This document shows positions 10,058-36,444 of a stretch of DNA of 55,797 bases, one piece after another. This DNA is from a virus. Where the stretch lies: positions 1 to 55,797 of the IMG/VR virus record IMGVR_UViG_3300020202_000007; one strand, 5' to 3'. Position 1 is the first letter of the stretch. Each line of letters begins with the position of its first letter. The notes under the pieces were generated by a model. The model was not told where the DNA came from. It did no database searches and saw only the letters and a list, made by a program, of their open reading frames with translations. The position numbers were made by a program, and so were the translations under genes.

Positions 10058-11293
10058 ATGCAGACCGAAGATGTAGCGATTAACGCTGGCTTCTACGTGC
10101 CGCGAATTGCTGAGCAAGGTGGTATGTTCGTCATCGAGCAGACTGACTCGATGTACCGAACGTACTACTGGTCCGCGAAGCGTGGCGAGTGGTTCAGTAT
10201 GCGAGAAAGCCTCCGATATGTGTCGCATTTTCGCAGCCGTGAGGCCGCAGAGCTTGAACTGAAACGGATTCGACTCAAGCTGACGCCTGAGTACCCGAAA
10301 TCCAAACTCCGAAAGCTCCAAGCCATGACCGACACCCCGAAAACCCTGCTCGATGCCGTCCGCTACTACAGCGATCCGAAGGTTTGTTTCGAGACGATGC
10401 TGCGGGTCAAGTTCCCGGACGGCAAGATTAAGTGCCCCAAGTGCCAGAGCGAGGCGGTGGGCGTGATCCGCTCCCGGTCGATGCTGCAATGCAAGGCGAA
10501 GGAATGCCGCAAACAGTTCAGCGTCAAAGTCGGGACGATTTTCGAGGATAGCCCACTTGGACTCGACAAGTGGTTCGTGGCCGTATGGTGCATCGCGAAC
10601 ATGAAGAACGGCATCAGCAGCCTCGAACTGTCGCGGGCCTTGGGCGTGCGCCAGCCAACCGCTTGGTTCATGCTCCACCGCATCCGCTGCGCGATGAAAA
10701 CGCGGACCTTCCGCAAACTGAACGGCGAAGTCGAGAGCGACGAATCGTTCTTTGGCGGCAAGGCTGCCAACATGCACAAGCACCGTCGCGAAAAGCTCAT
10801 CAGGGGCCGTGGCAGCGTCGGCAAGGCGATTGTCCAGGGATTGCTGGAGAGAAGCCAAGGCGACGGGCCAAGCCAGTTCCGGGGCTTTGTGGTGCCTAAT
10901 ACGACTGAGGAAACGCTTTGCGTCAACGTGATGCGGAACGTCGAAATGGGCAGCCACGTTTACACGGACGCCGCCACGGCCTACGGCGCTCTGGCGCTCC
11001 GCTACTGGCACGCCAGCGTCGATCACCTGACCAAGTACGTTTCGGCCCGCGTCCACACGAACGGGCTGGAGAACTTCTGGAGCTTGCTCAAGCGGGCGAT
11101 TCGAGGCACCTACGTTGCCGTCGCCGCCTTCCACCTTGAGCGGTATCTGGACGAACAAGCGTTCCGGTTCAATAACCGGGATGTAGGCGATGGGTTGCGT
11201 TTTCAGCGCGTCTTGCGGGCAGTTGTCGGCAAGCGCCTCACCTATCGGATGCTCACCGCGCAAGGTGACGCCGGCTTTATGGGGATTCGATGA
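10058..11293 (+). CDS. IS1595 (ISXO2-like) family transposase with 89-residue N-terminal extension
   Basis: 411 residues. From about residue 91 the protein is a typical IS1595 transposase: a zinc ribbon (C126, C129, C145, C150), an HTH region (LSRALGVRQPTAWFMLHRIR), then the catalytic core with D228 in ESDESFFGG, D304 in VYTDAATAYG and E338 in TNGLENFWSLLKR. M90 (10325) would be the normal transposase start. Residues 1-89 are not transposase-like and are read in the same frame. The stop overlaps the next gene and no terminal inverted repeats or target duplications are seen, so it may be immobile or adopted by the phage. Confidence 0.88.
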   Translation: MQTEDVAINAGFYVPRIAEQGGMFVIEQTDSMYRTYYWSAKRGEWFSMRESLRYVSHFRSREAAELELKRIRLKLTPEYPKSKLRKLQAMTDTPKTLLDAVRYYSDPKVCFETMLRVKFPDGKIKCPKCQSEAVGVIRSRSMLQCKAKECRKQFSVKVGTIFEDSPLGLDKWFVAVWCIANMKNGISSLELSRALGVRQPTAWFMLHRIRCAMKTRTFRKLNGEVESDESFFGGKAANMHKHRREKLIRGRGSVGKAIVQGLLERSQGDGPSQFRGFVVPNTTEETLCVNVMRNVEMGSHVYTDAATAYGALALRYWHASVDHLTKYVSARVHTNGLENFWSLLKRAIRGTYVAVAAFHLERYLDEQAFRFNNRDVGDGLRFQRVLRAVVGKRLTYRMLTAQGDAGFMGIR

Positions 11294-13083: not shown

Positions 13084-13464
13084 GTGGCAAATTCTCAAGG
13101 CGTAGGTCATCACACCACCCTGCATTCGATGCAGGAAATCGCCGTTCAATATTCCGCGTTCTTGCGGAAGGTTCTCGAATTCGGCCCAAAAACGCCCGAG
13201 TTCACCAATCACCTGCAAGCCGGCGCGCTCGAATTCCGTGAGGCGTACGACATGGTGATTGAGCATTTCGGCGTGTCGGCGGCCCCGGTTGAAGTCAACT
13301 GGGAAGAGGTCGCCGCGATCAATGATGTTCAGACCATCGAACAACAGGTCGTCGAGAAGGTTGGCGTCTCTGCGGGCGTCGGCGGGCTGCGCGAGATTTT
13401 CGCGTTCCTCGTTCAGTCGGGGCTGCTCGAACTGATCACGAAAACTTGGTTCAAGACGACCTGA
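13084..13464 (+). CDS. Hypothetical protein ahead of the secreted-protein module
   Basis: 126 residues from GTG 13084 with GGGGAG upstream. Mostly helical; the C-terminus is hydrophobic (REIFAFLVQSGLLELITKTWF) and could be membrane-associated. It lies between the terminator and the secreted protease genes, so a link to lysis is possible but unproven. Confidence 0.65.
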   Translation: MANSQGVGHHTTLHSMQEIAVQYSAFLRKVLEFGPKTPEFTNHLQAGALEFREAYDMVIEHFGVSAAPVEVNWEEVAAINDVQTIEQQVVEKVGVSAGVGGLREIFAFLVQSGLLELITKTWFKTT

Positions 13465-13503: not shown

Positions 13504-14220
13504 ATGATTCGTTCGCTCGTCATCGCCTTGCTATTGGCGGTTCCTGCGTTCGCGGCGCCGCCGGCCGTTGAGATCCCCGGTGAGGTCAAGCCATCGGGGC
13601 AGTATGTGACGCTTACGCCCAAGACTGAGGCGGCAGCTATCACGTACATCGGGCTATCCGGCATCGAGCCATTGCCGCCAGCCGTTCTCAAAGACCCGCG
13701 AATGTTTTTGCTCGACACGCGGGGGCTCGCTGTCGGCCGGTATCAATTCGTGGCTGTTGCCAGCCTCAAGGACGAGCACACCCGCGTTGACTTCTCGGTT
13801 GTCATTGGCACACCGCCACCGGGGCCGCCAGTAAACCCTCAGCCACCCGCACCTCCGCAGCCGCTGGCGGGGATGCGGGTACTAACGATTTGGGAGACGG
13901 ACAAGCCGTTGCCGCGCGATTACCAGAACGCGATAGCGTCTCAGGAGGTGGCGGCTTACCTCGACGTGAAGTGCTTGAAGGGGCCGGACGGCAAGACACC
14001 GGAGCGCCGGATATTCGACGAGGACTCATCGTTAGCCCAGCTCCCCAAGCCCTGGCAAGACCTGCGAGCCGCCCTACCTTCGGTCCTGCCCCTGTCCCCC
14101 GACGGATTCCAAGTGCCCCACGTAGCAATTGGGGCGGCGGATGGTTCCGTCGTAACTAGCGGGCCATATCCGCGTGCCGAAACAGAAGCCTTGGAGTTTT
14201 TCAAAAAGCATGGTGGATGA
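13504..14220 (+). CDS. Secreted protein with proline-rich linker
   Basis: 238 residues with GAAAGGGA upstream. A clear signal peptide (IRSLVIALLLAVPAFA, predicted cut after residue 17) is followed by a beta-rich domain, a Pro/Gly linker at about 102-122 and a C-terminal domain of about 115 residues ending in a FFKKHGG helix. The first 100 residues resemble immunoglobulin-like extracellular modules. No catalytic motif is seen. It overlaps the metalloprotease gene by 11 bases, so the two products probably act together at the envelope. Confidence 0.75.
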   Translation: MIRSLVIALLLAVPAFAAPPAVEIPGEVKPSGQYVTLTPKTEAAAITYIGLSGIEPLPPAVLKDPRMFLLDTRGLAVGRYQFVAVASLKDEHTRVDFSVVIGTPPPGPPVNPQPPAPPQPLAGMRVLTIWETDKPLPRDYQNAIASQEVAAYLDVKCLKGPDGKTPERRIFDEDSSLAQLPKPWQDLRAALPSVLPLSPDGFQVPHVAIGAADGSVVTSGPYPRAETEALEFFKKHGG

Positions 14221-15061
14221 TCGAACCATCATCGAAGCCTTGCACAAGTACGGCTATCTGCATCAGGTGGCACGGACGGAGTTGCACCTGTTCACGATTG
14301 AAGATGCAGTTGTTAAAGAGGCGTTGCGGAAGTATCAGGATTTCTGCCACTACCCGCTCAACGCGATTGTGTGGCGACATCATCGGCGCGATCTAAATGC
14401 GGATGGTGAAGTAGGCCCTGCGACTCGCGAACTGTTTGCTAGGCCGCGATGTGAGATTCCCGACTTCGGCCCAGGCTCGGGCGTGAGCCTTCAAGGCAGC
14501 GGAAGCTGGCCAGCGTCGTGCCAAAAGAGTGGCATCAAAATGTTCGTGAGCATGGCTGGCTGCCCAGTGCGGGACGAGTGGCCGCAGATTCAGGCGGATG
14601 TTCTCGAAGCCTATCGGCTAATCGGACTCAAGGTGAACATCGTTGACTTGCAAGCCAAGGCCAACGTGCATGTTTACTTCCGCTCGTTCTTCGGCGGCAC
14701 GATCGGTTTGGCTGAGTTCAACGGCCAAAGTTGCTCGGACAAGGTGTTCTGCTCGATGAGCAGCAGCTACCGGGGGGAGAACCGCGGGCTGTTCAAGCAT
14801 GAGTTTGGCCACAACTGCAATCTTTCACACACACGCGGCGGGACGATGAACCCGTACATTCTCGACGAGACGCACCCGCGGGCGTTCTGGGAGTCGAGCG
14901 ACCCGAGTTATCGAACTCTGGTCCGATACTTCGACGGCGCGCCCGTTGGAGAGCCAGGGCCAGGACCGCAGCCGCATCCACCACCGCCGCCACCCGATGA
15001 ACCAGACGAGCCCTACGTGGGGCCAATCATCCGCTTCCTTCGCAAACTATTTGGATGGTAG
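14210..15061 (+). CDS. Matrixin-like metalloprotease with peptidoglycan-binding-type prodomain
   Basis: 283 residues from ATG 14210. Residues about 5-78 fit a PG_binding_1 domain (ALRKYQDFCHYP, DGEVGPATREL). They are followed by PRCEIPDFG (79-87), close to the PRCGxPD cysteine switch that keeps matrix metalloproteases inactive, with C81 as the switch residue. The catalytic zinc motif HEFGHNCNLSH (H197, E198, H201, H207) and Met-turn (GTMNPY, M213) define a metzincin. A Pro-rich stretch (248-262) leads to a short basic-aromatic tail (RFLRKLFGW). There is no obvious signal peptide. Likely an envelope- or lysis-associated protease. Confidence 0.85.
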   Translation: MVDDRTIIEALHKYGYLHQVARTELHLFTIEDAVVKEALRKYQDFCHYPLNAIVWRHHRRDLNADGEVGPATRELFARPRCEIPDFGPGSGVSLQGSGSWPASCQKSGIKMFVSMAGCPVRDEWPQIQADVLEAYRLIGLKVNIVDLQAKANVHVYFRSFFGGTIGLAEFNGQSCSDKVFCSMSSSYRGENRGLFKHEFGHNCNLSHTRGGTMNPYILDETHPRAFWESSDPSYRTLVRYFDGAPVGEPGPGPQPHPPPPPPDEPDEPYVGPIIRFLRKLFGW

Positions 15062-15064
15062 CCC

Positions 15065-15961
15065 ATGCCATTTGTATCTGAACTAGCGCTGCGCCTGCCT
15101 GTCATGGACGACAGCAATTATCGGCAGTTCGCGATGCCGATGTCATCGACGGACGACGGGCATATTCAATCTCTGTCGGGTTACATTCCCCGCGACTTTG
15201 ACGCTGAGCCGATCGGTTCAGGTGTCGGCGCTGTGCTCGCAGACGAGGACGTTCTCCGGATGTACCCAGACGAGAAGGTATGGCGCGAGCGGTTCGAGGA
15301 ATTGGAGCGTAAGGGGCTGGACATCCCAACCGTTCTAAAGAAGTCGTTTCTCGCTGGCATCTGGCGCGGACTAAATCAAGACCCGACGAACTACTGCTGG
15401 ACGTATGGAACCGTTCACGCCTACATGGTTGAGCGGCTGTTGATGGGCGAGCCGTTCGTCCGCATGTCGCCCTATAGCGTGGCCTGCATCGTCAAGAACT
15501 TCTCGAACATCGGTGGCTGGGGGTCGCAGGCGCTGCAACAGATGGTCAAGGAAGGCGTAGCGTCGGAGGAGTTCTGGCCGCAAGAGAAGCCGGGCATGAG
15601 CAGCAGCGAGCGGCGCACGGCGAACATGAACGCCATCCGCAACGGCCGGCAATACTTGGCCGGAAGCCGCGCGAATGCGGCCATGCACAAGATCATTGAA
15701 TACAACGATTTGCCGTCGCGCAGCATCGCGCACAAAATGGCTTACCTCTGCGTGCCGCATCCAATCGCCAGCGGTTACAACCGCATCGGCCATGAACGAT
15801 GCACGGTTGCCGGCGTCGTTCTCTCTAACGGCGGTCTCGGTTTCGCGGACCTCGACTCTTACACCGACGATGGTTCCCCGGACATCAAGGTTGTCGCCAA
15901 CAGCTTCGGCGCTGGCGAGGACATGGTAATTCCGCGTGTTGGGATGCCATCGAACGTTTGA
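15065..15961 (+). CDS. Papain-like (C1 family) cysteine protease
   Basis: 298 residues. Q105-x5-C111 (in NQDPTNYCWTYG) matches the oxyanion Gln and active-site Cys spacing of papain. SPYSVACIV and NIGGWGSQALQQMVKEG match the region after the active Cys, including the GG turn. H243 (GHERCTV) and N279 (VANSFG) supply the remaining triad. The first 90 residues (with MPMSSTDDG and IPRDFD) look like a prodomain. There is no signal peptide. It follows the metalloprotease by three bases, and its end is 14 bp from the convergent late operon. It may degrade host envelope or scaffold proteins. Confidence 0.8.
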   Translation: MPFVSELALRLPVMDDSNYRQFAMPMSSTDDGHIQSLSGYIPRDFDAEPIGSGVGAVLADEDVLRMYPDEKVWRERFEELERKGLDIPTVLKKSFLAGIWRGLNQDPTNYCWTYGTVHAYMVERLLMGEPFVRMSPYSVACIVKNFSNIGGWGSQALQQMVKEGVASEEFWPQEKPGMSSSERRTANMNAIRNGRQYLAGSRANAAMHKIIEYNDLPSRSIAHKMAYLCVPHPIASGYNRIGHERCTVAGVVLSNGGLGFADLDSYTDDGSPDIKVVANSFGAGEDMVIPRVGMPSNV

Positions 15962-15975
15962 GGGCCGGACTGTCA

Positions 15976-18900
15976 CTACTCGTAAATCCGCTTCAGCGCC
16001 CGCAGCCTCGGGAAGTAGCCCTCCGTAATCCCGCCGCGCCGGCCCTTCTCGTCCGGCCGGCGGTAGTAGTCCTTCAGGAGTTCGCGTGCTTCCTCGAAGG
16101 AAACGCCCATCTCCTTCAGGTGTTCGCGGTTCTTGTCCCGCGTGACCATCTCCTGCTCGTCCTTGCCGCCGTATGTCGCGTTGTAAACGACCAGGCCGCG
16201 TTTCTCCTGCCGTCTCTGCTCGAACTGCTCGAGTTGTCCAGCGGTCAGGAACTCGCTGTAGGCTGGCTCGGGCGAGTCCCATGCCATTGCCTTCAGGTCT
16301 TTCGCGATTTGCGCCTGGCGTTCTTCCTCGTCGCCGGTCATGTACTCCGTCCTGGGGCCGTAGGTGCTCATGCCGACCCCCAGGATCGACAGGAGCGACA
16401 TGGCAGTGCCCTTGGGGAGCCCCTGGGCTCGCATCGTCGTCACGACGTCTTTCATTGACAGCGGGCTGACCATCGAACCGGCCAGCGACCACGTAGTCTC
16501 CTTCTGGCCGACAATGTTCGTCCAGTCGTCGGCGACAGTGGCGATGGCGCCGGGAACGGGGGCGAACTTCGTCCGGCCAAACCTTGCCAGAGCGGACATG
16601 CGGGTCTCTGGCTTGTATCCCTCGCCGAAATTCCTGATCTTGCCCGTGACGCTGCTCTTGCTTTGCCCAACCGTTAGACGCGAAGACAGTACGATGACCT
16701 GGGAGAGACCGGCCATGAAGTCGAGCCGGGTCTCGCCGATTCTGACCTTCAGGAAGTCCGAGGAGCGGGCGTCGGTCTCGATCTGAGGGCGGTCGTCATC
16801 GTCATCGTCGTAGAGGAGCTGCCCCAACAGCGCGAACAGCCCGAGCGCGGTCCCGATTCCCGCGGCGGTCCTGCCGTACTCCTGATAAATGGCCCGCTTC
16901 ACCCGCCAGCTCCCCTTCGTGAACGGCAGATAGAATGGCATAGCGAGGTACTGGAACCGGGAAGCCACGTACCGCGGGGCGAAGAACACCATGTTCAGCG
17001 TGGCCGCGGCACGGTTGAACATTTTCAGGTCAGCCCGGCCGGTGGCGACATTCACGAAGCTGGCAATCACCTTCGCCTCATCCATCGTGACTTTGCCGCC
17101 CCTGCCGAGATTCTGCACCATCGAATCGAACAGGTCGGCCCGCAACTTGTTGAGGATCATCGTGTAGAGCCGAGAGCTGACGGCGACCCCCGGAACCAGC
17201 TTCCCCCAACGGCCCTGGAACGCTTCCTCCTGCCTGGTAATCGCCTGGTCGGTGCTGGGCAGGTTCAGGCCAGCCTTCAGCCGGAATTCCCCCTCGGCCC
17301 CTTGGGTCAGCTTGTGCATAAAGCTGAACTCGGCCTGCCGGCTGTCGATCGTGCTCAGGAACTTACTGACGTTCTCGAGCGTGACGCCGCCCTGAAGGGC
17401 TTTGGCGTTGGCGGAATTGTAGGTGCTGGCGATGGAAACGACCGTCTCGACCAGTGCCCGCTTCGCCAGAACCGGATGCCCCATCGCCGCCAGGCCGCCT
17501 TGCCGCATGACCGCCGACAAGTCGAACGACGTCATCAGGGCACGCGACAGGTGGGCCGCTTCCATGATCTTGTCGGCAGTCCAGGCGATTCCCTTCAGGT
17601 GGGCCAGGTGGTAATCCGCGTACTTCTGAAGAACCTGATGCCGAATGTCCTCCATCTCCCGCTTGAGCTTGAGTTCTGAAGCCGACAGTTCCCGCGGACC
17701 CTTCTTCGGCTTGGGCGAAAAGTCCCCCTCGGCGAGAGTCTGCTGATAGTCGGCAATCCTCCGGCGCAGGGATGCTTCGTACACGCGCCGCGCGATCTCG
17801 GCGTCTGAAAGCGGAACCCTTCCCGTCGGCCTTCCGCCTTCCCCTTCCATTCGGTCTAATTCGAGCGCCTTGGCCGCTTCCCGCGCCGCCCGCAACTGTT
17901 GAAGCCTCGCGCGCCGGGCGTTCAGTTCTGGCGACGATAGCGTAGCTCGCCGCTCCTGGTCGAAGTCCCTGGTTTCCAGTTGCTTCTCCATCTGCTCGAT
18001 CGCCCTGTCCGCCGCCCGGATGGCGCTGGCGATTCGCTGAGCCTCTGTCATCGTCTTCTTCTTCGGCGGGAACATCTCCCGGTGAATATTCAGCAGGGCG
18101 TCACGTTCCGCTTCCAGGGCCGTAATTCGCTCGCTGGTGGGCCGCTCGCGATTCTCCCGGACGATACGTTCCCCGTGCTCGATCTCCCAGCGGAGGTCTT
18201 GAATCCGGTTCGTGAGCGACCGCTCGATCTGAGCGAGTGCCGTCTGGAGGAGCCCCGCCTTGCCCGCGGGGGTCGCGGGAATCGCCTTCTTCAGCTCGTT
18301 GTACTTCTGAGTCAGTTGCCGGATGGTATGACTGGGCCTGTCCCGGACCAGTCCGGTCGCTTCCACCAGCAGCTTCTCGTCGGCCAGGGCTTTGCCGATC
18401 TCCTCGTCGGTTTTTCCCTGGGCCCGCAGTTCGTCCACTCGCTGCATCGCCTTCTCGATCTGGTCGATCTGCGAGAGCTTCAGGATCTCCGCGTTCATCC
18501 CGCGAATCAGCTTTTCGATTTCGTCCTGCGACTGGGTTTGAAACTGCCCATACCGGGAGAGGGCGTCCATTGCCTGTCGGCGGGTAAGGTCGGGGAGTTC
18601 TTCCTTCAGGGCCTGATGAACCGTATCAATCACCTGCTCCCTGTCGGTCATCCCCAATTCCACGAGCGTCCTCTGAATCCTGCGGGCTTCCTTGGTGAGA
18701 GAAGCTCGGTCGGTCAGGTCCACTTCGGGAGCTTCGGACGTCTGGTCCCATGCCTGCCGGAATAGCTTCTCGTCGGCGTCGGGGATGTTCTGACGCACGG
18801 CCGCCATGAATTCCGCGAAGCGGACATATCCCAGTTCGACGTAAGCCTTGGCGACTTCCACCGCCGGGCCGAGAAGATGCGGGCCGGCGCCGGCCTGGGT

Positions 18901-21900
18901 CAGAGCCGCCTTGCGGAAGTTTTCCCAAGCGTCCGCGAGTTTTTTCTCGGCCGCCTTCCGCTTGTCCGATTTGCGGAGAATCTTCGTCTGCCTGACCTGT
19001 TTGACGGTTTCTTCGTGGTGCCGCTTGGAAGCGAGCTCGGCTTCGAGTGCCTCGGTCTTGCGCCGCTGCTCGTCGAATTGCTTTTGCAGGTCTTCGAGTT
19101 GCTTGGATAGCTTCGTCAGTTCGGCCGTCTGATCAGGACTGAGTTCTTCCCCGTTATTCGCTTCCTGCCCCCTGCGCAGAATCGCTTCGAGCGAGAAGTC
19201 CTTCCTGAGCATCTGCTGAAGCGCAACGCCTGTCCGCCCCCAGGTCTCCTTCGACGGGTGAATGGTCTCCTCGAAATCGGTCATCGCCTTGCGGGCGTTT
19301 ATCAGGGCGGTGCGCGCCGTGGCGATCGCTACCGGGTCTTTCGAGTTCACGGCCTCGAAATACTCGTCCACCACCGGCTGCAGTTCGTTGGCCAACTGCC
19401 GGTAGCGGAACTGCAGCAGCATCGCGTCGTGCTGGCTGATCGGCCTGGGGCTCGTCGCTAGCTCGTTCACCAGTCGAATCGCCGCCTTGGGGTCTGCCGC
19501 CAGCGTCACGCGCGCGGCTTCCGCCCACTCTTCGACGGTCTGCGGAGTCGAGCCTTCCATCTCGGGCAGCCCGACCATCTCCCGCAGTTCGTTGACGATG
19601 GCCTTCTTAATGCTGGTCAGGTCATCGCTCGACGGCGGCGGCGCCTCAGCCGTCGCTTCTGGGGTCCGTGGCTCCATGCCCGCCACTTCGCCGGATCTCT
19701 GCAGCCGGTCCCATTCCGCTTCGAGGGCGGGCCTGATTCGATCGACAGCGGCCTGCCCGATGCTCTTGGCCAGGCGTTCGATGAGCGAGGCGAACTTCAG
19801 CGTGCCGGCCTTGGCGAACTTCGCGACGACTCGCCCGGCCCCAGCGATAACTTCCGGGTCGAGCATCGGGTTGCTGGCGAGGCCCTTGCCTTTGAGCGTC
19901 TTGCCGAAGGCGTCCAGTTCGTCGAAGGCTTCCTTGGTGGCTGCGTCGGCGGCTTGCTGGAGCTTGGTTGGCTTCGGCTGTGCATCGCCGCCATCCAAAC
20001 CGTCCACGTCGAACATCGTCTCTTGGCCGGGCAGGTCTTTGCCCAATCCGCTGATGAACGCCTTCTGCTTCTCTTTCGGCGTTTTGAACTGCTTGTTCGC
20101 CTGCCCGATCTCTTCGCGTCGCTCCTGGCTGGCAACGGCTTCTTCGGTTCCGGGGATGGCTGTTTGTTTGACCTCGGGAGCATTCGCGCCAAAGTCGAAA
20201 GACTCATCGCCGAGTTCTGCCGCGATCTCGGCGGCCAGCTCCTCGTCGATCTCGGCTTCCATCGCCGCATCGTCTTTGGTGAACGACTCGCTGGCGAGCA
20301 GTGCGAACAGCTTGTGCTCGTCGGTGGGCAGGCCAAGTTCTGGGTGGTCCTTGGCGTATTCCACCATCTCGTCGAAGCGCTTCAGCGAGTCGGCATCGCC
20401 ACGCTCCGCGGCGTTAAGCAGCTTCAGCTTGAACTTGCCGCGCTGGCCCTTCCCGACAAACTGAGACACAAGCTCATCGACAGCATCGTTGCGCCGCTGG
20501 AGTTCCTCTTTCGCCAGCTTTAACCGCTCGGCTCGTTCTTGCTCGAACGCTCCAGCCGTTTCTTCTTCCAGATAGCCAATGCTCGTTCGACGGCGGCCCT
20601 GCGCTCGTTCGGAGGCATCGAGTTCAGCTTGTTTCGCAATTTCTCGAGCAGCGTCGAGGAGACCTGGGGTTGGGTCTTGGCGGAAGAAGTATCCTTTGCC
20701 TGCTCGCTTCCCTTGGTAGTCGATTTGGAGTCCATCTGCGATCTCCTTCGGAATGCCGGTCACGGACCAGCCTTTCGGAGTGCTCTTTATTGTAATCCCC
20801 GCCTGAGTCAGTTCGGGAGGTACTGCTTCACGAACTGGCTCAGGCTGGGCACTGGTTTGCTCCTGGGGCTGAATTGCCCACGTCGCATCCGGCGTCAGAA
20901 CGCGACCCCTCTTCGTGACCACTTTCCCGTCGTCGCGGACCTTGGCAATCTTGAATCCACTCGGAACTTTGGGCGTGGCAACGGTGACAGGGCCTTCTTC
21001 GAGGGCGGAACGGATTTCGATAACGATGTCACGCTGCGGAGCGGTCTCGGCTGCTGGCTGCTGAATCGGCTCGGCGGCTGTCGCTGGGACTTCCTCGTCT
21101 GTCTCTACTGGCGGTTGGACCGACTGTTCCGCTTCCGGCGCTGCCGCTTCAGCTTGGGCCAGCCAGTTGAGCAGTTCTTGTGAGGTCAGTATTTCCGGTG
21201 CTGCAGCGACTTCGCCCGCTGGCTCCGCTGGTACTTCGACTTGCCCTTCCCCACGAATACCTTCGCCGCCTTCGGGTTGCCGTACTTCCGTTTCAGGGCC
21301 TGATACTGCGCTGGCATTTTGAATCTCCTGCTCGAGTTGTTGGATTTCCGCGTCGGCGCTGGCCAGCCGTTCCCTGCGGGTCTCTCCGGGGATCCCTGCG
21401 GCTTGGCCGTCCTCTGCGGAGACATAGCCCTTGGCGCGAATCTCCTTGAGTTGAGCCAGCCGTGCGGGCCGGGCAGCGCTTTCCCGGGCGACTTGCACAC
21501 CGCCAACCGCTGCTCCAGGTGCGACCATCAGGGCCAATGGCAGGGCGGTGTCCCGAATTTCCGACAAGCCGCTGGCGAGGGTCTGCCCGAATCCCTGGTC
21601 GGGAATCCGGTCGTCCATTTGGCGGCCGACTTCCAGGGCCGTTTCGCTCACGATCCTCTGAAGCCCCTCTTCTGCCAGTTCCTTCGTGTAATTGGCGGTG
21701 TACTGCTTCAGTAGCTTGCCAGCCACCTGCCGCACGGAACCACGGAACGCCGCCCCATATCCAGAAAACGGGTCGGGGAGAATGGATTCAATTGCCGCTT
21801 CGATTGGTGCGCTGATAGCGGTAATCGTGCGAGCGGTGTTCGGGTCTGCTCCTTCAGCAATTTGCGAGGAGTAGGTCTGATCGGCAATTTGCGGCAGAGA

Positions 21901-22497
21901 AGCGCCTGCCACACCAGTCGCCGTAGCGATTCCAGTGGCCTTCGCGCCCAATCCCAATGCGCGGCCGACAGCGCCAACAGCCTTCCCGCCAGTGACGGCA
22001 TGTACCGCCGGAAAGCTCATGCGACCTGTCTGCTGGACCGCACGACCAAGGAAGTTGGTTTCAGGCAGGATCGTCGGGTCGCTGCTTTCCCGGAGGCCGA
22101 TCAATTCCTGTTTGAATCTCTCTTGCTCAGCATCTAATTTTGGAAGCGCACCAACCATCTTCGCCAACGGCACACCTACGTCAGTGAACCCTTGGACCGC
22201 GGAGGTCGCCAGACGCGTCCCATAGCCAACCTTTGTCATGGTCCGGTCGGCCGCGTACTGCTTCGCGAGCATGGCCCTGAACAATTCCCAGTCGGAACGC
22301 GGAATCGCGTGCGCCGCTGAGTGCTCCCCGATCGTTGTAGCCGGCGTGCCCGAGAACCGTTCTGCGATGGCAGTGTACGCCTTGACCTTCTTCGGATTGG
22401 CTATCGCGATGATCTCATCGTGACCAAGTTCGTCCGCCGCGATGGCGTCTCCCGGAGGAGTCCACGCCACGGCATCTGTCGGTGGTTCCCAGGGCAT
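15976..22497 (-). CDS. Giant internal virion / ejection-type protein (2173 aa)
   Basis: Read from ATG 22497, just after the upstream gene's stop. The N-terminal 400 residues are Ala/Gly-rich with hydrophobic stretches, the middle (about 450-1100) is disordered and acidic, and the rest is long helix. Near residue 1890 the segment GTALGLFALLGQLLYDDD is a likely membrane helix followed by an acidic patch. No transglycosylase or RNA-polymerase motif is recognised. Size, position at the end of the late operon and helical-membrane composition fit the internal virion proteins that podoviruses inject to build a DNA conduit. Confidence 0.75.
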   Translation of the reverse strand: MPWEPPTDAVAWTPPGDAIAADELGHDEIIAIANPKKVKAYTAIAERFSGTPATTIGEHSAAHAIPRSDWELFRAMLAKQYAADRTMTKVGYGTRLATSAVQGFTDVGVPLAKMVGALPKLDAEQERFKQELIGLRESSDPTILPETNFLGRAVQQTGRMSFPAVHAVTGGKAVGAVGRALGLGAKATGIATATGVAGASLPQIADQTYSSQIAEGADPNTARTITAISAPIEAAIESILPDPFSGYGAAFRGSVRQVAGKLLKQYTANYTKELAEEGLQRIVSETALEVGRQMDDRIPDQGFGQTLASGLSEIRDTALPLALMVAPGAAVGGVQVARESAARPARLAQLKEIRAKGYVSAEDGQAAGIPGETRRERLASADAEIQQLEQEIQNASAVSGPETEVRQPEGGEGIRGEGQVEVPAEPAGEVAAAPEILTSQELLNWLAQAEAAAPEAEQSVQPPVETDEEVPATAAEPIQQPAAETAPQRDIVIEIRSALEEGPVTVATPKVPSGFKIAKVRDDGKVVTKRGRVLTPDATWAIQPQEQTSAQPEPVREAVPPELTQAGITIKSTPKGWSVTGIPKEIADGLQIDYQGKRAGKGYFFRQDPTPGLLDAAREIAKQAELDASERAQGRRRTSIGYLEEETAGAFEQERAERLKLAKEELQRRNDAVDELVSQFVGKGQRGKFKLKLLNAAERGDADSLKRFDEMVEYAKDHPELGLPTDEHKLFALLASESFTKDDAAMEAEIDEELAAEIAAELGDESFDFGANAPEVKQTAIPGTEEAVASQERREEIGQANKQFKTPKEKQKAFISGLGKDLPGQETMFDVDGLDGGDAQPKPTKLQQAADAATKEAFDELDAFGKTLKGKGLASNPMLDPEVIAGAGRVVAKFAKAGTLKFASLIERLAKSIGQAAVDRIRPALEAEWDRLQRSGEVAGMEPRTPEATAEAPPPSSDDLTSIKKAIVNELREMVGLPEMEGSTPQTVEEWAEAARVTLAADPKAAIRLVNELATSPRPISQHDAMLLQFRYRQLANELQPVVDEYFEAVNSKDPVAIATARTALINARKAMTDFEETIHPSKETWGRTGVALQQMLRKDFSLEAILRRGQEANNGEELSPDQTAELTKLSKQLEDLQKQFDEQRRKTEALEAELASKRHHEETVKQVRQTKILRKSDKRKAAEKKLADAWENFRKAALTQAGAGPHLLGPAVEVAKAYVELGYVRFAEFMAAVRQNIPDADEKLFRQAWDQTSEAPEVDLTDRASLTKEARRIQRTLVELGMTDREQVIDTVHQALKEELPDLTRRQAMDALSRYGQFQTQSQDEIEKLIRGMNAEILKLSQIDQIEKAMQRVDELRAQGKTDEEIGKALADEKLLVEATGLVRDRPSHTIRQLTQKYNELKKAIPATPAGKAGLLQTALAQIERSLTNRIQDLRWEIEHGERIVRENRERPTSERITALEAERDALLNIHREMFPPKKKTMTEAQRIASAIRAADRAIEQMEKQLETRDFDQERRATLSSPELNARRARLQQLRAAREAAKALELDRMEGEGGRPTGRVPLSDAEIARRVYEASLRRRIADYQQTLAEGDFSPKPKKGPRELSASELKLKREMEDIRHQVLQKYADYHLAHLKGIAWTADKIMEAAHLSRALMTSFDLSAVMRQGGLAAMGHPVLAKRALVETVVSIASTYNSANAKALQGGVTLENVSKFLSTIDSRQAEFSFMHKLTQGAEGEFRLKAGLNLPSTDQAITRQEEAFQGRWGKLVPGVAVSSRLYTMILNKLRADLFDSMVQNLGRGGKVTMDEAKVIASFVNVATGRADLKMFNRAAATLNMVFFAPRYVASRFQYLAMPFYLPFTKGSWRVKRAIYQEYGRTAAGIGTALGLFALLGQLLYDDDDDDRPQIETDARSSDFLKVRIGETRLDFMAGLSQVIVLSSRLTVGQSKSSVTGKIRNFGEGYKPETRMSALARFGRTKFAPVPGAIATVADDWTNIVGQKETTWSLAGSMVSPLSMKDVVTTMRAQGLPKGTAMSLLSILGVGMSTYGPRTEYMTGDEEERQAQIAKDLKAMAWDSPEPAYSEFLTAGQLEQFEQRRQEKRGLVVYNATYGGKDEQEMVTRDKNREHLKEMGVSFEEARELLKDYYRRPDEKGRRGGITEGYFPRLRALKRIYE

Positions 22498-29956: not shown

Positions 29957-30820
29957 TTACGTTGCGGACGGGCTGCTCGACGGTGAAGAAGACACTGACG
30001 CGGATGGTGAGCTCGACCTGGACGAGGATGGCGACGCTGACGGCGACGGACTCGCAGATGGTGAGCTCGACCGGGAGGTCGATGGCGTGGATGACGGGCT
30101 GGCTGATACCGAGGTGGACGGAGACGTGGATGGCGATATAGACGGGCTCGAGGAGGGCGTGCTCGAAACCGATGCCGATGGCGACGGGCTGGAGGATGGC
30201 GTCGAGGACGGCGACGCGGATACCGACGCGGACGGCGACGGGCTGCTCGACGGCGTGCTCGACACTGAAGCAGACCGCGACGTGGACGGGCTGCCGGAAA
30301 CCGATGTTGACGGCGAGGAGGAGGCGGATGGGCTGCTCGAAGCCGTAGCAGACGGCGACGAGGATCGGCTTTTCGAGGGGCTGCTGGAACGCGATGACGA
30401 TGGCGACGGGCTGCTCGAAGCGGTGGAGGACGGCGACGCCGAAGGGCTGGTCGATCGACTTGTTGAGGGCGACGACGACTGAGACGCTGAGGGCGATGAG
30501 GATCGCGATGCGGATGGCGATGCGGACGGTGTTGCGGAAGCAGACTGAGACGGACTGCTCGATTTAGAGGCTGACGGCGAAGCGGAAGGCGAACTGGATC
30601 GTGAAGTCGATGGCGACGCCGACTTCGACGACGATGGAGACCGGGACGGCGACGTGGACGGCGTGGACGACACCGAAGCGGACCGCGATGTTGATGGGGA
30701 GTGGGATGCCGAAGCAGAAGGCGAAGTGGACGGGGAACCTGATGGGCTGCTCGACGGAGAGACCACGCCGCCGGGAACCCGGCCGTCGTCACTTCCACGC
30801 CATTGTCCTGATACTGCCAT
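29957..30820 (-). CDS. Ser-Pro repeat protein (virion-associated, low complexity)
   Basis: 287 residues; after 20 residues almost the whole protein is alternating Ser-Pro-Ser-X (X mostly Ser, Ala, Thr, Arg). The reverse strand also stays open over most of the tract but has no ribosome-binding site and would be an anomalous Asp/Glu/Gly polymer; the minus frame is in series with its neighbours, so it is preferred. Such tracts are disordered and likely flexible or heavily modified, perhaps with glycans given the neighbouring glycosyltransferases. Confidence 0.65.
   Translation of the reverse strand: MAVSGQWRGSDDGRVPGGVVSPSSSPSGSPSTSPSASASHSPSTSRSASVSSTPSTSPSRSPSSSKSASPSTSRSSSPSASPSASKSSSPSQSASATPSASPSASRSSSPSASQSSSPSTSRSTSPSASPSSTASSSPSPSSSRSSSPSKSRSSSPSATASSSPSASSSPSTSVSGSPSTSRSASVSSTPSSSPSPSASVSASPSSTPSSSPSPSASVSSTPSSSPSISPSTSPSTSVSASPSSTPSTSRSSSPSASPSPSASPSSSRSSSPSASVSSSPSSSPSAT
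29960..30760 (-). repeat. Ser-Pro coding minisatellite, tract 1
   Basis: About 800 bp of degenerate GAxGGC-type hexamers on the plus strand (codons for Ser-Pro on the minus). The longest of three such tracts in the window. Confidence 0.85.
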
Positions 30821-30821
30821 T

Positions 30822-32378
30822 TCAGCCGCTCATCGTGTCGAACATCATGCTTTCAAAGGCCCACTTGTCCGTGGATTGCAGCCACAGGCAACACCAAATC
30901 CCTCGCACTCGCGGATAAACCATGATCGACCGCCCGGCCTTCCAGTTCCCGCTCTGCTTTACCAAACTGGAATAGCTCGCGCCGCTGCGGAATGACTCGA
31001 TGGCCGTCTTCGCGTTAGCGGCCGCTTCTTCGGCCGTGTCCCCTGTCAGAATGCGCCAGTTCACTCGTCCGCTGCCGGCCGCCAGGCTGGCGTGAAGATT
31101 TATCATGCGGCCATAGTGACCTTTGATTCCAAGGCGGATTGGGCCGAAGACGACATGCGACGTAATCGCCGCGCCATCGTCATTGTCTCCAGTGACCTTG
31201 CGCACGTACCCATCCCCGCCGGCTAAAAGCAATTCCCCGTCATGCTGGCAGACCACGCGAGGCGAATGGCTGTCCTGAAGCCATATCGGCCAGAACGCTT
31301 GCGGAACGGTTTCATAGAGCCAGTGGGTGTCTCTTCCCCCGGATGTTCGGAGGTAGATATGGAACGCCCGACGATCCTGCTCCCAGCCCAGCGAAACGGT
31401 CGTCGTGCTCGTGTCGATGTCCCGCAGTTCGTCCGGGATCGTGTCAGGCGTCAGGGGCGTGAGGCCGGAGCCGTCGGCCTGAACCTGATATAGTCCGTCT
31501 TCGGACAGGAAGACGATCGTGCCATCCACCTTGACCCAGGCTTTGGAACCGATGATCCCGATTGTTTCGGAGATCCTTCGCAAAGCCCCGTTGGCGGTCG
31601 GGTCGCCTTGAACCACCCACAGGCTCCGAGCCGTGGCGCAGATCAGGTAGGCGTCCATGCACGGAATCATCGCGGTCGGCCTAGCCCCAACATCCGCGCT
31701 CAAGGCCAACTGAAACGGAACTGCTCGCGCCGTGTCCTCGAACGAAGCCCCGAAGTCGAAGTCACCGTACACACCCTGCCGACTCATGTAGATCGCGTTG
31801 TCCTGCCCGGAGAGGCATAGCCGGTCTCGATAGACCGCCCCGAACGTGCAGTTTGCTGGAATCGTGCCGGCCACTGCCGCGAGGGTGTCAATCTGACCTG
31901 TCTTCGGGTCGATCTTCGTGACGCCACTGGTAGTCACCGCGAATACTTTCTGCTGGCCAGTGACGAGGAACCCGGAGGCCGGCACGGAGCCTTCGCCGAT
32001 CGTGATCGGCACTTCGTCTTCGTTGGTAATGACCTGGCCGGCTTCGTTCGTCAGGTAGGCCACCAGCGCCGTCGTCGTGCCGTTCTCGACCACCTTGATC
32101 GACGAATCCACCAGCACAAGCAGGACTTCACTGGCCCCGCCGGCTGCGCTCGACACATTGAGCGAAGCCATGTCGGAGATCGTGGTCCCCATGTCGTCGT
32201 TGACGAACTTTGCCAGACCGGGACGACTGCCGCCGCGCAGGCGCCGGGAGATGTTGTCCTCAACTCGGCAGTTCGCGGCCCAGACGGCAGGCCACGGTCC
32301 GCGCGTATCGGGAGCGGCCCGCAGCGCTCCGCGTCGCACGACTCCGCGCATCGGAAACAGGATGTCCTTAGTGGTCAT
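30822..32378 (-). CDS. Propeller-like tail or DNA-stabilisation protein
   Basis: 518 residues. The N-terminus has an ANCRVEDNISRRLRGG segment followed by many beta strands with regular turns (GVYGDFDFG, DGTIVFLSEDGLYQV, SLGWEQDRRAFHIYL), as in beta-propeller proteins that form the nozzle or plug of short-tailed phages (T7 gp12, P22 gp10 class). Assignment rests on architecture and position, not on a diagnostic motif. Starts in the preceding stop (TAATG). Confidence 0.7.
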   Translation of the reverse strand: MTTKDILFPMRGVVRRGALRAAPDTRGPWPAVWAANCRVEDNISRRLRGGSRPGLAKFVNDDMGTTISDMASLNVSSAAGGASEVLLVLVDSSIKVVENGTTTALVAYLTNEAGQVITNEDEVPITIGEGSVPASGFLVTGQQKVFAVTTSGVTKIDPKTGQIDTLAAVAGTIPANCTFGAVYRDRLCLSGQDNAIYMSRQGVYGDFDFGASFEDTARAVPFQLALSADVGARPTAMIPCMDAYLICATARSLWVVQGDPTANGALRRISETIGIIGSKAWVKVDGTIVFLSEDGLYQVQADGSGLTPLTPDTIPDELRDIDTSTTTVSLGWEQDRRAFHIYLRTSGGRDTHWLYETVPQAFWPIWLQDSHSPRVVCQHDGELLLAGGDGYVRKVTGDNDDGAAITSHVVFGPIRLGIKGHYGRMINLHASLAAGSGRVNWRILTGDTAEEAAANAKTAIESFRSGASYSSLVKQSGNWKAGRSIMVYPRVRGIWCCLWLQSTDKWAFESMMFDTMSG

Positions 32379-32824
32379 TAAGGATCGACCGGGCTTTCTC
32401 GATCGTGCCTTGATTTAAGTTCTGATTCCGCCTTGCTCAGCCGCTCGAGCAATTCCTTTTGGGTGGTGGCTGTGCCAGCGATGTCACGGGCCGCGTGAAC
32501 CATGTCGCGGGCATCGCTCATAATCCGCAGAATCACTTTCCGCAGTTCCGCACACTCGCCAGAAAACGTATCCGTCAGCGACGAGCAGCGCGCCTCGTGC
32601 TTCGCGCTGATGTCCAGCAATGTCCTGTTGGCTTCTACGTGAATCTCGCGCGCATGCGTCAGCATGTATCGCAGTACGAAAAACGCACCTAAGCTCGCCA
32701 GGGTAAGTACGACGACGAACAGGTAGATGACGTTGCTCTGGCCGGCACTACTGGCCGACGCTTTTTTGATCTCTTCCAAGAGGACCGGGATCGTCACGGA
32801 TTCGACTATTTGTGCGAATAGCAT
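32378..32824 (-). CDS. Membrane protein with C-terminal coiled coil
   Basis: 148 residues from ATG 32824. One strong membrane helix (NVIYLFVVVLTLASLGAFF) at about 35-54, followed by about 90 residues of charged helix. An amphipathic N-terminal helix precedes the membrane segment. It could be a spanin-like, holin-accessory or ejection protein; no motif decides. Confidence 0.65.
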   Translation of the reverse strand: MLFAQIVESVTIPVLLEEIKKASASSAGQSNVIYLFVVVLTLASLGAFFVLRYMLTHAREIHVEANRTLLDISAKHEARCSSLTDTFSGECAELRKVILRIMSDARDMVHAARDIAGTATTQKELLERLSKAESELKSRHDRESPVDP

Positions 32825-32832
32825 TGGATGAT

Positions 32833-33774
32833 TTAATGCCAATCGGGGATGGGGCGGAAATGCTCGATCAACCAGGACAGATGACGCTGCGCGTGGGGCC
32901 ACTTGCCATTTAGCCATAGTTCGCGCGAGTACGCCCGCGCTGCGTCGATCTGTCGCTGGCTGATCGGGTAGGGCCAGGATGACTCTCCGTTCTTGCCGAA
33001 GTTGCCGGTGCGGAAGAGGTGGGCGAACCATGTCTTGAGCGACGTCACCATCCTGCCCCCGGACAGCCACGCCTTGCACGATAGCTCCGTTCCGTATTGG
33101 CCCCAGGAGCCGTGCCCCTCATCCATGCCGCCGAGCTTCAGGAACCGCTCCCGTTCCATCAGGAAGCAGGCCCCAATGCAGCTCATCGTCTCGACGACGC
33201 CGCTGGACTCTTCCGCCTTGTACTTCTCCGTGTGCCTGTAGCCCCGCCAATATTGGAAGTGAAGGGCCTTGTCGAATCGCCAGGCCGTCGTGGCTGGGTA
33301 CTCGAAACGCGGCTGCCAGACCATGACCATCGTGAAATCCGTTCCCTTACACTCCTTGCACTCCTTCGGACGAGTGCCCTGATACTCTCGCTCGCCGCAG
33401 CCGTTGCAGTGCCAGTCGAAAACGTGAAGCCGGTGCATCGACGGAATCATCGTCATGTCGGGCTGCATGTCCGCGAGCAGCTTCACGTCGAAGCCGTCCT
33501 CGACCGAGCAGTGGGCGTCGAGTTTGCAAATGTATTTGGCCCGGCTGATCGCGGCCCCGTAGTTCGTCGCGGCCCGCTGGCCTACAGACTGCCCGAAGTG
33601 AACGACCTGCAATCGCGGGTGCTGAACCAGCGGTGGATTCGGCCAATACTCGTCACAGATCGCTATGACCTCCGTGTCTTCGCCGGTGTGCGCAAGCACG
33701 TCATCGACCGTGTGGAACATGAATTGTTCGTTCCGGCCGGGAATGATGATCGACAACAGCTTAGCCTTCGACAC
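32833..33774 (-). CDS. Family 2 glycosyltransferase with zinc-ribbon insert
   Basis: 313 residues. SIIIPGRNE starts a GT-A nucleotide-binding fold; a KLDAHCSV segment supplies the DxH-type metal site. FLMERERF..GGMDEGHGSWGQYGTELS is the acceptor-side motif of GalNAc-transferase-like GT2 enzymes. Between the halves sits a CxxC...CxxC pair (CNGCGEREY, CKECKG), an unusual zinc ribbon. It probably decorates virion proteins or host surface glycans. The start overlaps the next glycosyltransferase by 14 bases. Confidence 0.88.
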   Translation of the reverse strand: MSKAKLLSIIIPGRNEQFMFHTVDDVLAHTGEDTEVIAICDEYWPNPPLVQHPRLQVVHFGQSVGQRAATNYGAAISRAKYICKLDAHCSVEDGFDVKLLADMQPDMTMIPSMHRLHVFDWHCNGCGEREYQGTRPKECKECKGTDFTMVMVWQPRFEYPATTAWRFDKALHFQYWRGYRHTEKYKAEESSGVVETMSCIGACFLMERERFLKLGGMDEGHGSWGQYGTELSCKAWLSGGRMVTSLKTWFAHLFRTGNFGKNGESSWPYPISQRQIDAARAYSRELWLNGKWPHAQRHLSWLIEHFRPIPDWH

Positions 33775-34504
33775 GCTCTCTCCTTTGCTGCTGATGCCAG
33801 AAGTTGCGACTCGTCTTGCGCGTCAGTTTGTGAAACAGCCCCTTGGGATCAGCGTCTACGTCGCCGACATACTTCCCGTTCGGGAACATGAACATCTTCG
33901 GGCGGTACGGGCAGACCATTGACCCCTCTCCGCCGTGCGCTAGCTCGTACGTCCGCCATGCGCTGCGAAATGCCCGATCTTCGCCTTGGGGGTAGGGTTT
34001 CTCCGCAAGGTCTTCGCGGTAGCCGCCCAGTTCCCAGAACAAGTCCCGCCGCATGGCAAAGTTGTTCGGCAGCGGGCCGAGCTTGAGACTGCTGTGCTTT
34101 GGAAGACCGTACTCCGCCAGCACGTCCCGGTCCTGCGTCAGCCTGCCAAACTCGTCCAGAATTCCGAACTCCCGCGTGAACTGCACCTTGAGGCCCTTGA
34201 ACCCTCTCACGAAGTCCAGCAGATTGCGGTCGGCGATGTGGTCCAGGTCGAACATGAGGAGATAATCGCCGGTCGCCATCCGAGCCCCGGCGTTCCGGGC
34301 CAGCGCCCAGGTCCAGGGTCGCTTGTCGTTCGTCCGGTGAATCCTCGCCAGGCGGGAGAAGTCGTTCTCGATTGGCGGGTCGCTCCCGTCATCCACCAGG
34401 ATCAACTCGGTGTCTCCGGGCAGTCCGATGCGATAGAAGTGCAGCAGTTGCCGGCGTACGACCTCGTGGCTGTTGAGGCACGGAATTACAATGCTTAACC
34501 GCAT
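33761..34504 (-). CDS. Family 2 glycosyltransferase
   Basis: 247 residues from ATG 34504. LSIVIPCLNS, ELILVDDGSDP and LLMFDLDHI (DLD metal site) are the GT2 motifs in order; FAMRRDLFWELGGYREDL is the usual later motif, with QGEDRAF supplying the catalytic acidic residues. A longer in-frame extension lies inside the HNH gene and is rejected. Confidence 0.9.
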   Translation of the reverse strand: MRLSIVIPCLNSHEVVRRQLLHFYRIGLPGDTELILVDDGSDPPIENDFSRLARIHRTNDKRPWTWALARNAGARMATGDYLLMFDLDHIADRNLLDFVRGFKGLKVQFTREFGILDEFGRLTQDRDVLAEYGLPKHSSLKLGPLPNNFAMRRDLFWELGGYREDLAEKPYPQGEDRAFRSAWRTYELAHGGEGSMVCPYRPKMFMFPNGKYVGDVDADPKGLFHKLTRKTSRNFWHQQQRRERVEG

Positions 34505-35115
34505 AGGGACTTCCTCTCCCTCTTGATCCTGAAGATTTCCTTCTTCTCTCGGATGGTCTTTCTGGCGTGGCAGTTGGGGCAAAGCGTCTGCATGTTGCTC
34601 AGATCTTCCCGTAATTCCGGGTAGATCGCCTTCGGCTTGATGTGGTCAACGCAGGCGATTTCCTCATCCCGAAGTCCGCACACTTGGCATGTGTAATCGT
34701 CTCGCTTCAGAGCCCGTCGCTTTTGATACTGCTCTTTGCCTCCCTTCCAGTTGGCGGATTCCTCATCGGTCCTGTTCGGGAAGTGCAGGCAATGTGCGTC
34801 ACTGATGGCAATTACCCTCCGTTTCGCCTTTGTTTCGGGGGACTGCTTCTTTCCGTATGTTGGCCCTTTGAAGCCGCGAGCCGCCTTGGCCTCCCGAATC
34901 CGCTGCCTGTGCTCATCGGAATACCTGTAGCCTCGCTTGCCGCCGTTGGCATGGTCTTCCGCAGTGAAGCGATACCTGTTCGCCACTTGGTTGTGGCCGC
35001 GAACGAACCGCAGCGGCTGCCCCCTCACCCAGCCCCGCTTCTTGTTCGAGAACGGGGCGATCGGTGCAGGCTTTCCGCAGCCACATTCACACAGTTTGCC
35101 GATCGGTGTCCTCAT
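34495..35115 (-). CDS. HNH homing endonuclease with NUMOD-type DNA-binding motif
   Basis: 206 residues from ATG 35115. CECGCGKPAP at the N-terminus, a NUMOD3-like YGKKQSPETKAKRR segment, then the HNH core: RDDYTCQVCGL, CVDHIKPK, LSNMQTLCPNCHARKT. It sits inside the glycosylation cluster, overlapping both the methyltransferase (four bases) and glycosyltransferase (ten bases) genes, consistent with a precisely inserted homing gene. Confidence 0.9.
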   Translation of the reverse strand: MRTPIGKLCECGCGKPAPIAPFSNKKRGWVRGQPLRFVRGHNQVANRYRFTAEDHANGGKRGYRYSDEHRQRIREAKAARGFKGPTYGKKQSPETKAKRRVIAISDAHCLHFPNRTDEESANWKGGKEQYQKRRALKRDDYTCQVCGLRDEEIACVDHIKPKAIYPELREDLSNMQTLCPNCHARKTIREKKEIFRIKRERKSLCG

Positions 35116-35738
35116 GAGCCCAGCCCCGCCCTTTCCGCTCCACGCTGCCAGAACGCGGTTGGCTCCATGTCGCGCGTCACGTACCACGGGTCGATCCAAT
35201 GGCAGTGCGTATAGGCGTCGATCGCTGGAATGACGCCTGACATTCCGAACGCGCAGTAATCGTGAACTAGCACCAGTCCGCCTTCGCGGACCTTCGGCGC
35301 CCAGCGGATGACGTCCTGCACGGCGGCGTCGAATGAATGATCCCCGTCGATATGGACCCAATCGAGCGAGCCGTCAGCGAAGTCGTCCACGGCTTCCAGG
35401 CTGGGCTTGCGCAGAATTTTGAACCCGTACTGCGAGGCGTTCCCCTGCGCGCCGGCGTAGATCAAGTCCTGCCGGGCCTGAGACACCCGATGATAGGCGC
35501 GGTACGGGTCGATGCAGGTGATGTCCAGATCGGGAATGTGCTCGCGCCAGAGCTTCGCCGAAGCCCCGTAGCGGCAGCCGATCTCCGCGGCCTTGACCAG
35601 ACCCATGTCTCGCATCGTTCGCGCCAGCGCCACTCGCCCGCCCTCGCGACGGGAATGTGGCGTCGCCAACAGCGGGAGATTGTCCAGTCCGCCGATGAAG
35701 CGAAAGTGCCTCTCAAGGTGCTTGCGCAGATCGAGCAT
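35112..35738 (-). CDS. Class I SAM-dependent methyltransferase
   Basis: 208 residues. AEIGCRYGASA is motif I, DITCIDPYR the acidic motif II loop, LDWVHIDGDHSFDAA motif IV, and VREGGLVLVHDY a following strand, as in Methyltransf_24-type enzymes that act on sugars or small molecules. Placed between glycosyltransferases, it likely methylates a glycan. Confidence 0.88.
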   Translation of the reverse strand: MLDLRKHLERHFRFIGGLDNLPLLATPHSRREGGRVALARTMRDMGLVKAAEIGCRYGASAKLWREHIPDLDITCIDPYRAYHRVSQARQDLIYAGAQGNASQYGFKILRKPSLEAVDDFADGSLDWVHIDGDHSFDAAVQDVIRWAPKVREGGLVLVHDYCAFGMSGVIPAIDAYTHCHWIDPWYVTRDMEPTAFWQRGAERAGLGS

Positions 35739-36444
35739 CCGCTACTCCCTGGTTGTAAATGGCCGTGATGTCCGAGGCTTTTCCCCAGACCGGAATGTCC
35801 CACGCTTTCAATTCGCCTGGCTTTCGTTCCAGCCCCGGAGTATTGATGTACGTGGGGGAAAGTCCCTGGGGATGGCACAGGTTCACCATCGGTTCGATGC
35901 ACCACCACTCGACCAAATTCCGCCGAGTCACCCCAAGTATCTTCTCGACCTCCCGCCGGCCGATCTCCCCGGTGTAATCCTTGCCGCTCGGGTACTTTCT
36001 TTCGCGCTCTTCTAAAGCGTCGATCACCAACTGCCGCGGGCCGATCATCGTGAAGTTGCCGTGCTTGCGAATCGCCGAGAAGAACGGCCGCTGCGCCCAT
36101 GAAAAAACGCTCCACCGCGACATGTCGTAGGCCACCGCGTCGTCCGGTGGCCGGAAGTCGTTGAAGTGCCTGGCCGGGTAGAGCGTGTCGTCCTCCGCCA
36201 CGGCCACGTACTTCGTTTCTGCCAGCTTCGCTCCGCGCAGCAATTGCCGGTACACGTTCCACGCGCAGAACGGACCCTCCTGAATCAGGTAGGTCGTCCC
36301 AGGCCGGTCCAGCTCCATCTTCTCCCTGGAAATGACCACCATCGGCCTGCCGTCCGCTGCGCGCAGCAGATGCTCCAGATGGAATTTCTCCCACCTGGAT
36401 GGAAGGGCGTTCAGCGTCAGGAAAATGATGGTCAGGTCGGACAT
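35713..36444 (-). CDS. Glycosyltransferase-like protein (GT-A fold)
   Basis: 243 residues. LTIIFLTLNALPSRW and KYVAVAEDDTLYPARHF (EDD metal site) give a GT-A type start; WCIEPMVNLCHPQGLSPTYI is a plausible acceptor part. Similar proteins occur in phage glycosylation clusters. It overlaps the methyltransferase gene by 26 bases. Confidence 0.75.
   Translation of the reverse strand: MSDLTIIFLTLNALPSRWEKFHLEHLLRAADGRPMVVISREKMELDRPGTTYLIQEGPFCAWNVYRQLLRGAKLAETKYVAVAEDDTLYPARHFNDFRPPDDAVAYDMSRWSVFSWAQRPFFSAIRKHGNFTMIGPRQLVIDALEERERKYPSGKDYTGEIGRREVEKILGVTRRNLVEWWCIEPMVNLCHPQGLSPTYINTPGLERKPGELKAWDIPVWGKASDITAIYNQGVADARSAQAP

Follow-up and report, generated by a model that had tools for sequence, protein, structure and literature searches.

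MMP-type cysteine-switch zymogens in a phage family as candidate lysis proteases

The 55,797-base virus genome record IMGVR_UViG_3300020202_000007 (hereafter the window, i.e., the whole stretch of DNA analyzed) encodes two proteases side by side: g25, which sequence comparison places, with good support, in a family of phage zymogens of the matrix metalloprotease (MMP) type, and g26, for which a papain-like (C1-type) assignment is supported over the N-terminal half. The window carries an exact 127-base direct terminal repeat and is therefore most likely a complete genome. We propose, with moderate confidence, that g25 is a latent protease zymogen which is released through a holin and digests a protein-rich envelope for lysis.

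Both open reading frames (ORFs) lie exactly where an earlier note on this DNA had placed them (Table 1). The same note had read in g25 the domain order of an MMP zymogen (a prodomain, a cysteine switch, a zinc-binding site and a Met-turn), and this order was supported by six phage sequences, by profile matches to proMMPs and by a prodomain model close to proMMP-9. Among the window ORFs of at least 60 amino acids (aa), HExxHx5[HD] was unique to g25, and the joint pattern of switch, zinc site and Met was found in none of 200,000 shuffles of the g25 protein. In Pfam, g25 matched Reprolysin_5 (1.8e-5), Reprolysin_3 (1.4e-4, above its cut-off) and PG_binding_1 (0.007); Peptidase_M10 gave no match to it. 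IMG/VR searches with g25 and its relatives found five other contigs encoding a metalloprotease of this type (L002, L020, L022, L023 and L025; 30-64% identity), which together with the window make up the family described here. Invariant in all six sequences were R80, C81, D85, H197, E198, H201, H207 and M213, as well as two further cysteines, C104 and C175. The switch of L023 is an exact PRCGYPD, the textbook form of the MMP switch, and that of L025 is PRCGFAD, accompanied by HEFGHGLGMNH and ALMYP; moreover the L025 protein scored above the Pfam cut-off for Peptidase_M10 (Matrixin; 27.8 bits vs 24). The Gly position of HExxHxxGxxH is Asn in the window and L002, Ser in L023 and Gly in L020, L022 and L025.

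A profile of the six sequences matched proMMP-10 (8.4e-7), proMMP-3 (4.8e-6) and proMMP-1 (6e-6) in the PDB, the proMMP-10 alignment spanning the prodomain, the switch, the zinc site and beyond. Structure prediction, which the earlier note had proposed as a check, agreed for the prodomain: AlphaFold2 (AF2) gave a predicted local distance difference test score (pLDDT) of 37 on two sequences, and on six sequences it modelled the prodomain confidently (block means of 66-89 over residues 1-80), with proMMP-9 chains as the nearest PDB neighbours (Foldseek probability 0.90, E only 0.22). By hydropathy, neither g25 nor the related metalloproteases have a signal-peptide-like hydrophobic N-terminus, in which they differ from neighbouring proteins. 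Codon-position divergence was consistent with purifying selection on both g25 and g26. Apart from the window, only L002 has the Pro-rich linker and C-terminal tail of g25 (hydrophobic moment 0.71 in the window, 0.48 in L002). A match in a Croceivirga contig (L007) was set aside as uninformative, being a cellular protein aligned to the catalytic part only. The L002 phage record also encodes an additional protein with HEIGHH (L010:9779-10435), possibly a second metalloprotease.

For g26, the earlier note had listed Q105, C111, H243 and N279 as the papain residues. The first three were invariant in five aligned g26-type proteins, whereas position 279 was not conserved (N, N, S, E and G); position 264, which stands in a context resembling the papain "NSW" (DSY, DSY, DSY, NTY and NSH, with Asn in L005 and L006), appears the likelier third catalytic residue. 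A single-sequence Pfam search with g26 found no match, and Peptidase_C1 had none in the window, L002, L003, L005 or L006 records. On the other hand, phmmer related g26 to mexicain (0.0018), and a five-sequence g26 profile reached mexicain at 3e-7 and also ficin, FBSB and cathepsin K; this match covers the half with Q105 and C111, not the C-terminal half. The protein begins with an extension of ~100 aa and has no signal peptide. Its relatives are in L002, L003 and L005, plus a divergent group (L006 and L013-L015).

The earlier note had recognized no amidase, muramidase or transglycosylase, which held for the families tested in the complete genome, and the search for other lysin genes that it had suggested found no conventional endolysin by Pfam scans or six-frame searches. 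Specifically, no peptidoglycan-hydrolase Pfam family was present in any called window protein, and a Pfam scan found no lysin family in the 50 proteins of the L002 record; in the L023 record, which is complete too (121-base terminal repeat), the Pfam scan of 78 proteins listed only 25 of 50 families, too few to count by itself as a negative. Six-frame searches of eight records (the window and seven related ones) for Amidase_2, SLT, M15_3, M23, Amidase_3 and GH108 were all empty. Two candidates were rejected: a Phage_lysozyme match at 33300-33458, which fell below cut-off (14.4 bits) and contained two stops, and an "amidase" PHROG match in g34, which overlapped a tail-protein match and where Pfam gave only weak beta-propeller-type families.

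In the relatives the metalloprotease appears to occupy the slot of an endolysin, since holin-like small transmembrane (TM) genes and a secreted-protein gene precede it. Three small TM genes lie directly upstream of the secreted gene and the metalloprotease in L020, and one of them, two genes upstream, is an r1t holin (E 8.8e-19). L022 has two small TM genes in the equivalent place, one weakly XhlA-like, and in L023 a TM protein of 58 aa is encoded a few genes before the metalloprotease. Moreover, the large terminase gene follows the protease module at a short distance in L002, L023 and, for the papain part, L003; the order in L002 is metalloprotease, g23-like, g24-like, small TM protein, papain and TM/coiled-coil protein, followed by terminase, portal and Mu F-like genes. 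The gene after the L020 metalloprotease (L020:8942-10078) encodes a membrane protein in which a segment with CPPC is weakly similar to thioredoxin (Pfam 0.025, PHROG thioredoxin 0.005); it might reduce wall disulfides or the switch.

A secreted-protein gene, often with a Pro-rich linker, is found directly or nearly directly 5' of the protease in the inspected contigs, although the C-terminal domains of its papain-linked and metalloprotease-only versions are unlike. In the window this gene is g24, whose product has a signal-peptide-like hydrophobic N-terminus, an extracellular domain, a Pro-rich linker and a C-terminal domain of ~115 aa; its homologues in L002, L003, L005 and L006 stand directly or nearly directly ahead of the papain-like gene. 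No relative of the C-terminal domain was found in the PDB, and a thioredoxin assignment, plausible by eye, was dropped for want of both a CxxC and a PDB match. The g23 protein has a soluble N-terminal part and a hydrophobic C-terminus, and a homologue with 36-37% identity is encoded directly 3' of the L002 metalloprotease; g23 is a conserved cassette member and conceivably a membrane or regulatory partner.

These features suggest the following scheme, in which the latency of g25, its export, activation and substrate, and its part in lysis are what we infer. g25 would be made in the cytoplasm as an MMP-style zymogen, where a protease, unlike a muramidase, has substrates; it could accumulate harmlessly despite these many cytosolic targets because the prodomain would hold Cys81 on the catalytic zinc, keeping the enzyme silent until a holin opens. 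As g25 has no signal peptide, its way across the inner membrane would be the holin lesion, as for a classical endolysin. Outside, activation would follow loss of the Cys-zinc bond, either by thiol chemistry or by cleavage of the prodomain, for which g25 itself, g26 and a host protease are candidates; g26 may thus assist in prodomain removal or work alongside g25. Together, g25 and g26 would break down an envelope layer rich in protein and disulfides and so complete lysis, a task that would otherwise fall to a peptidoglycan hydrolase, with g23 and the secreted g24 as conserved partners. Such lytic use of g25 is the most economical reading of the sequences, though unproven. With less confidence, the scheme may extend to a phage family that lyses its hosts without a peptidoglycan hydrolase, whose cysteine-switch zymogens (some of them papain-paired) would be "protein-wall endolysins", latent until holin release.

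The host was approached through several searches. No relatives of g25 or g26 were found in phage or plasmid collections and none of g24 in plasmids, and terminase and portal searches gave no informative host match. Planctomycetota would fit: their wall preparations contain cysteine-rich YTV proteins (PMC8567305), and Planctopirus can dispense with many genes of peptidoglycan synthesis (PMC10632474). This assignment is unproven, and none of the present evidence links the window with that phylum. The phage-plasmid pPLIM01 (L044/L046, NC_014149), from the Planctomycete Planctopirus limnophila, has genes for terminase, portal, capsid, tape measure and integrase; none of the three protein families under study is encoded on it.

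Several observations weigh against lysis by a protease zymogen: i) the lysin search covered known families only; ii) the AF2 model of the g25 catalytic region has a pLDDT of about 25-45, too low to confirm the metzincin fold or the placement of C81 on the zinc; iii) strong linkage to a holin family was found in only one relative (L020); iv) the papain-like protein and the metalloprotease occur together only in the window and L002 among the contigs with either, several of which are fragments; v) Planctomycetes possess peptidoglycan, and both their cells and their sacculi break up under lysozyme (PMC4432640); and vi) hydropathy and Pfam scans identified no holin in the window genome. Proteolytic lysis had been raised in the earlier note as possible; the endolysin slot behind holin-like genes in the relatives takes it beyond that, although it is still an inference.

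The rival explanation that survives best, though unlikely, is that g25 is a true endolysin, i.e., a metallopeptidase cutting the peptide cross-links of murein, with a peptidoglycan-binding prodomain and a switch for latency. The endolysin-slot position behind the L020 holin and the similarity of the prodomain to PG_binding_1 fit this; however, the sequence profile points to MMPs rather than to M23 or M15, a papain-like partner has no obvious use in murein cleavage, and no peptidoglycan-cleaving metzincin is known to us. There is a precedent in LytM, a latent murein metallopeptidase with an "asparagine switch" in its proregion (PMC4594094). Also improbable, to a similar degree, is that the proteases assist lysis or modify the envelope and that the true lysin is one of the many window proteins of no known family. 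A phage-origin metzincin (Mtz) with a lipoprotein partner sensitizes Listeria to phage lysis (PMC8235301), and a secreted partner gene is conserved beside the protease here as well; on the other hand, Mtz is exported by Sec and g25 is not, and the eight records held no lysin candidate of the families tested. Finally, an early or non-lysis role (virion-borne entry proteases, anti-superinfection factors, or attack on surface proteins of competitor or host) is suggested by the early-strand position of the window cassette, convergent with the late operon, and by the L006-type contigs, where the papain pair sits among replication-type genes, but is very improbable given the proximity to holin and terminase genes in relatives and the lack of a signal peptide for release without lysis.

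Table 1. Features of the protease cassette, and the small TM protein gene g35, in the window
Feature	Position	Strand	Description
g23	13129..13464	+	111 aa; alternative GTG start at 13084
g24	13504..14220	+	238 aa
g25	14210..15061	+	283 aa; predicted MMP-type (matrixin-like) metalloprotease zymogen
g25 prodomain, residues 1-79	14210..14446	+	helical, PG_binding_1/MMP-prodomain-like
Cysteine switch R80-C81-E-I-P-D85	14447..14464	+	R, C and D invariant in 6/6 sequences
Zinc-binding motif HEFGHNCNLSH, residues 197-207	14798..14830	+	H197, E198, H201 and H207 invariant in 6/6
Met213, presumed Met-turn (GGTMNPY)	14846..14848	+	invariant in 6/6; ALMYP in L025
Pro-rich linker and short hydrophobic/amphipathic C-terminal tail of g25	14948..15058	+	PIIRFLRKLFGW; L002 equivalent end PLLDWLWKWFST
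g26	15065..15961	+	298 aa; predicted papain-like (C1-type) cysteine protease
Q105-x5-C111, papain Gln/Cys pair (QDPTNYC)	15377..15397	+	Q and C invariant in 5/5
H243, candidate catalytic His (GHER)	15791..15793	+	invariant in 5/5
D264, likelier third catalytic residue	15854..15856	+	D/D/D/N/N; sequence context only
g35	32378..32824	-	148 aa; one N-terminal TM and a coiled-coil-like region; hydropathy 2.61; no Pfam family

Successive genes from g23 to g26 are spaced by 39, -11 and 3 bases (g24 and g25 overlap by 11), and the cassette, on the + (early) strand, faces the end of a long late operon that converges on it. Distant from it lies g35, the only small TM protein found in the window and a weak candidate for a holin or lysis-accessory protein. 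A late protein of 2173 aa (15979-22497, -) is nearly without recognizable domain (weak HEAT, 0.01) and presumably serves inside the virion or in ejection. Ser-Pro-Ala repeats (SPSASPSSSPS...) form much or part of three late-operon proteins (29957-30820, 36448-36948 and 39012-39734, all -), and similar Ser-rich stretches were seen in the L020 and L023 contigs. The late operon also contains two glycosyltransferase-2-type genes (32836-34504 and 35716-36444, both -), an HNH/NUMOD3 gene (34498-35187) and another glycosyltransferase-like protein. Two tyrosine integrase-type genes (49691-50305 and 52108-53028, both -) suggest a temperate phage. An IS1595-family transposase gene (10058-11290, +) lies within the early region, its best plasmid matches being of ~40% identity and from varied hosts.

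To our knowledge, the phage lysis enzymes known so far cleave peptidoglycan (or pseudomurein). The main text of a recent survey of viral lytic proteins (PMC12596118) is silent on metalloproteases, matrixins and papain. The present family brings MMP-style cysteine-switch zymogens to phages. If the proposed scheme is true, the prodomain and switch of MMP type found in phages would derive from a peptidoglycan-binding domain, and lysis by a zymogen protease would be a different chemistry, which would explain the need for a latency device; it could also provide tools for opening bacteria with protein-dependent walls. Should the hosts be Planctomycetota, the finding would bear on the dispute over what holds their wall together.

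Compared with known systems, relatives resemble canonical r1t-type holin-endolysin cassettes in a holin or holin-like gene upstream (a clear r1t holin in L020), an enzyme without signal peptide and, in several of them, nearby packaging genes, whereas the enzyme here is a predicted protease zymogen and no tested peptidoglycan-hydrolase family accompanies it. The Listeria Mtz-Tim pair resembles g25/g24 in combining a phage-origin metzincin with a secreted protein and a link to lysis; however, Mtz has a Sec signal peptide and g25 no hydrophobic N-terminus, the Mtz partner is a TIMP-like lipoprotein and g24 has a signal-peptide-like start, and Mtz sensitizes to lysins while the g25 type occupies the lysin slot in relatives (PMC8235301). 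No cysteine switch is mentioned in the Mtz-Tim paper (PMC8235301). With the papain family C1 (mexicain, ficin and cathepsin K), g26 shares Q-x5-C, a candidate catalytic His, D/N at the presumed NSW-like position and an N-terminal extension, but it lies below Pfam C1 detection, matches in the N-terminal half only, has Asp for Asn and lacks a signal peptide. Finally, g25 has the order of the animal MMP zymogens (MEROPS M10A; proMMP-1, -3, -9 and -10), i.e., prodomain, RC..(P)D switch, HExxHx5H and Met, and differs from them in its low identity, E for G of PRCGxPD, N for G of HExxHxxGxxH, the absence of a signal peptide, its extra invariant cysteines and its place in a phage cassette.
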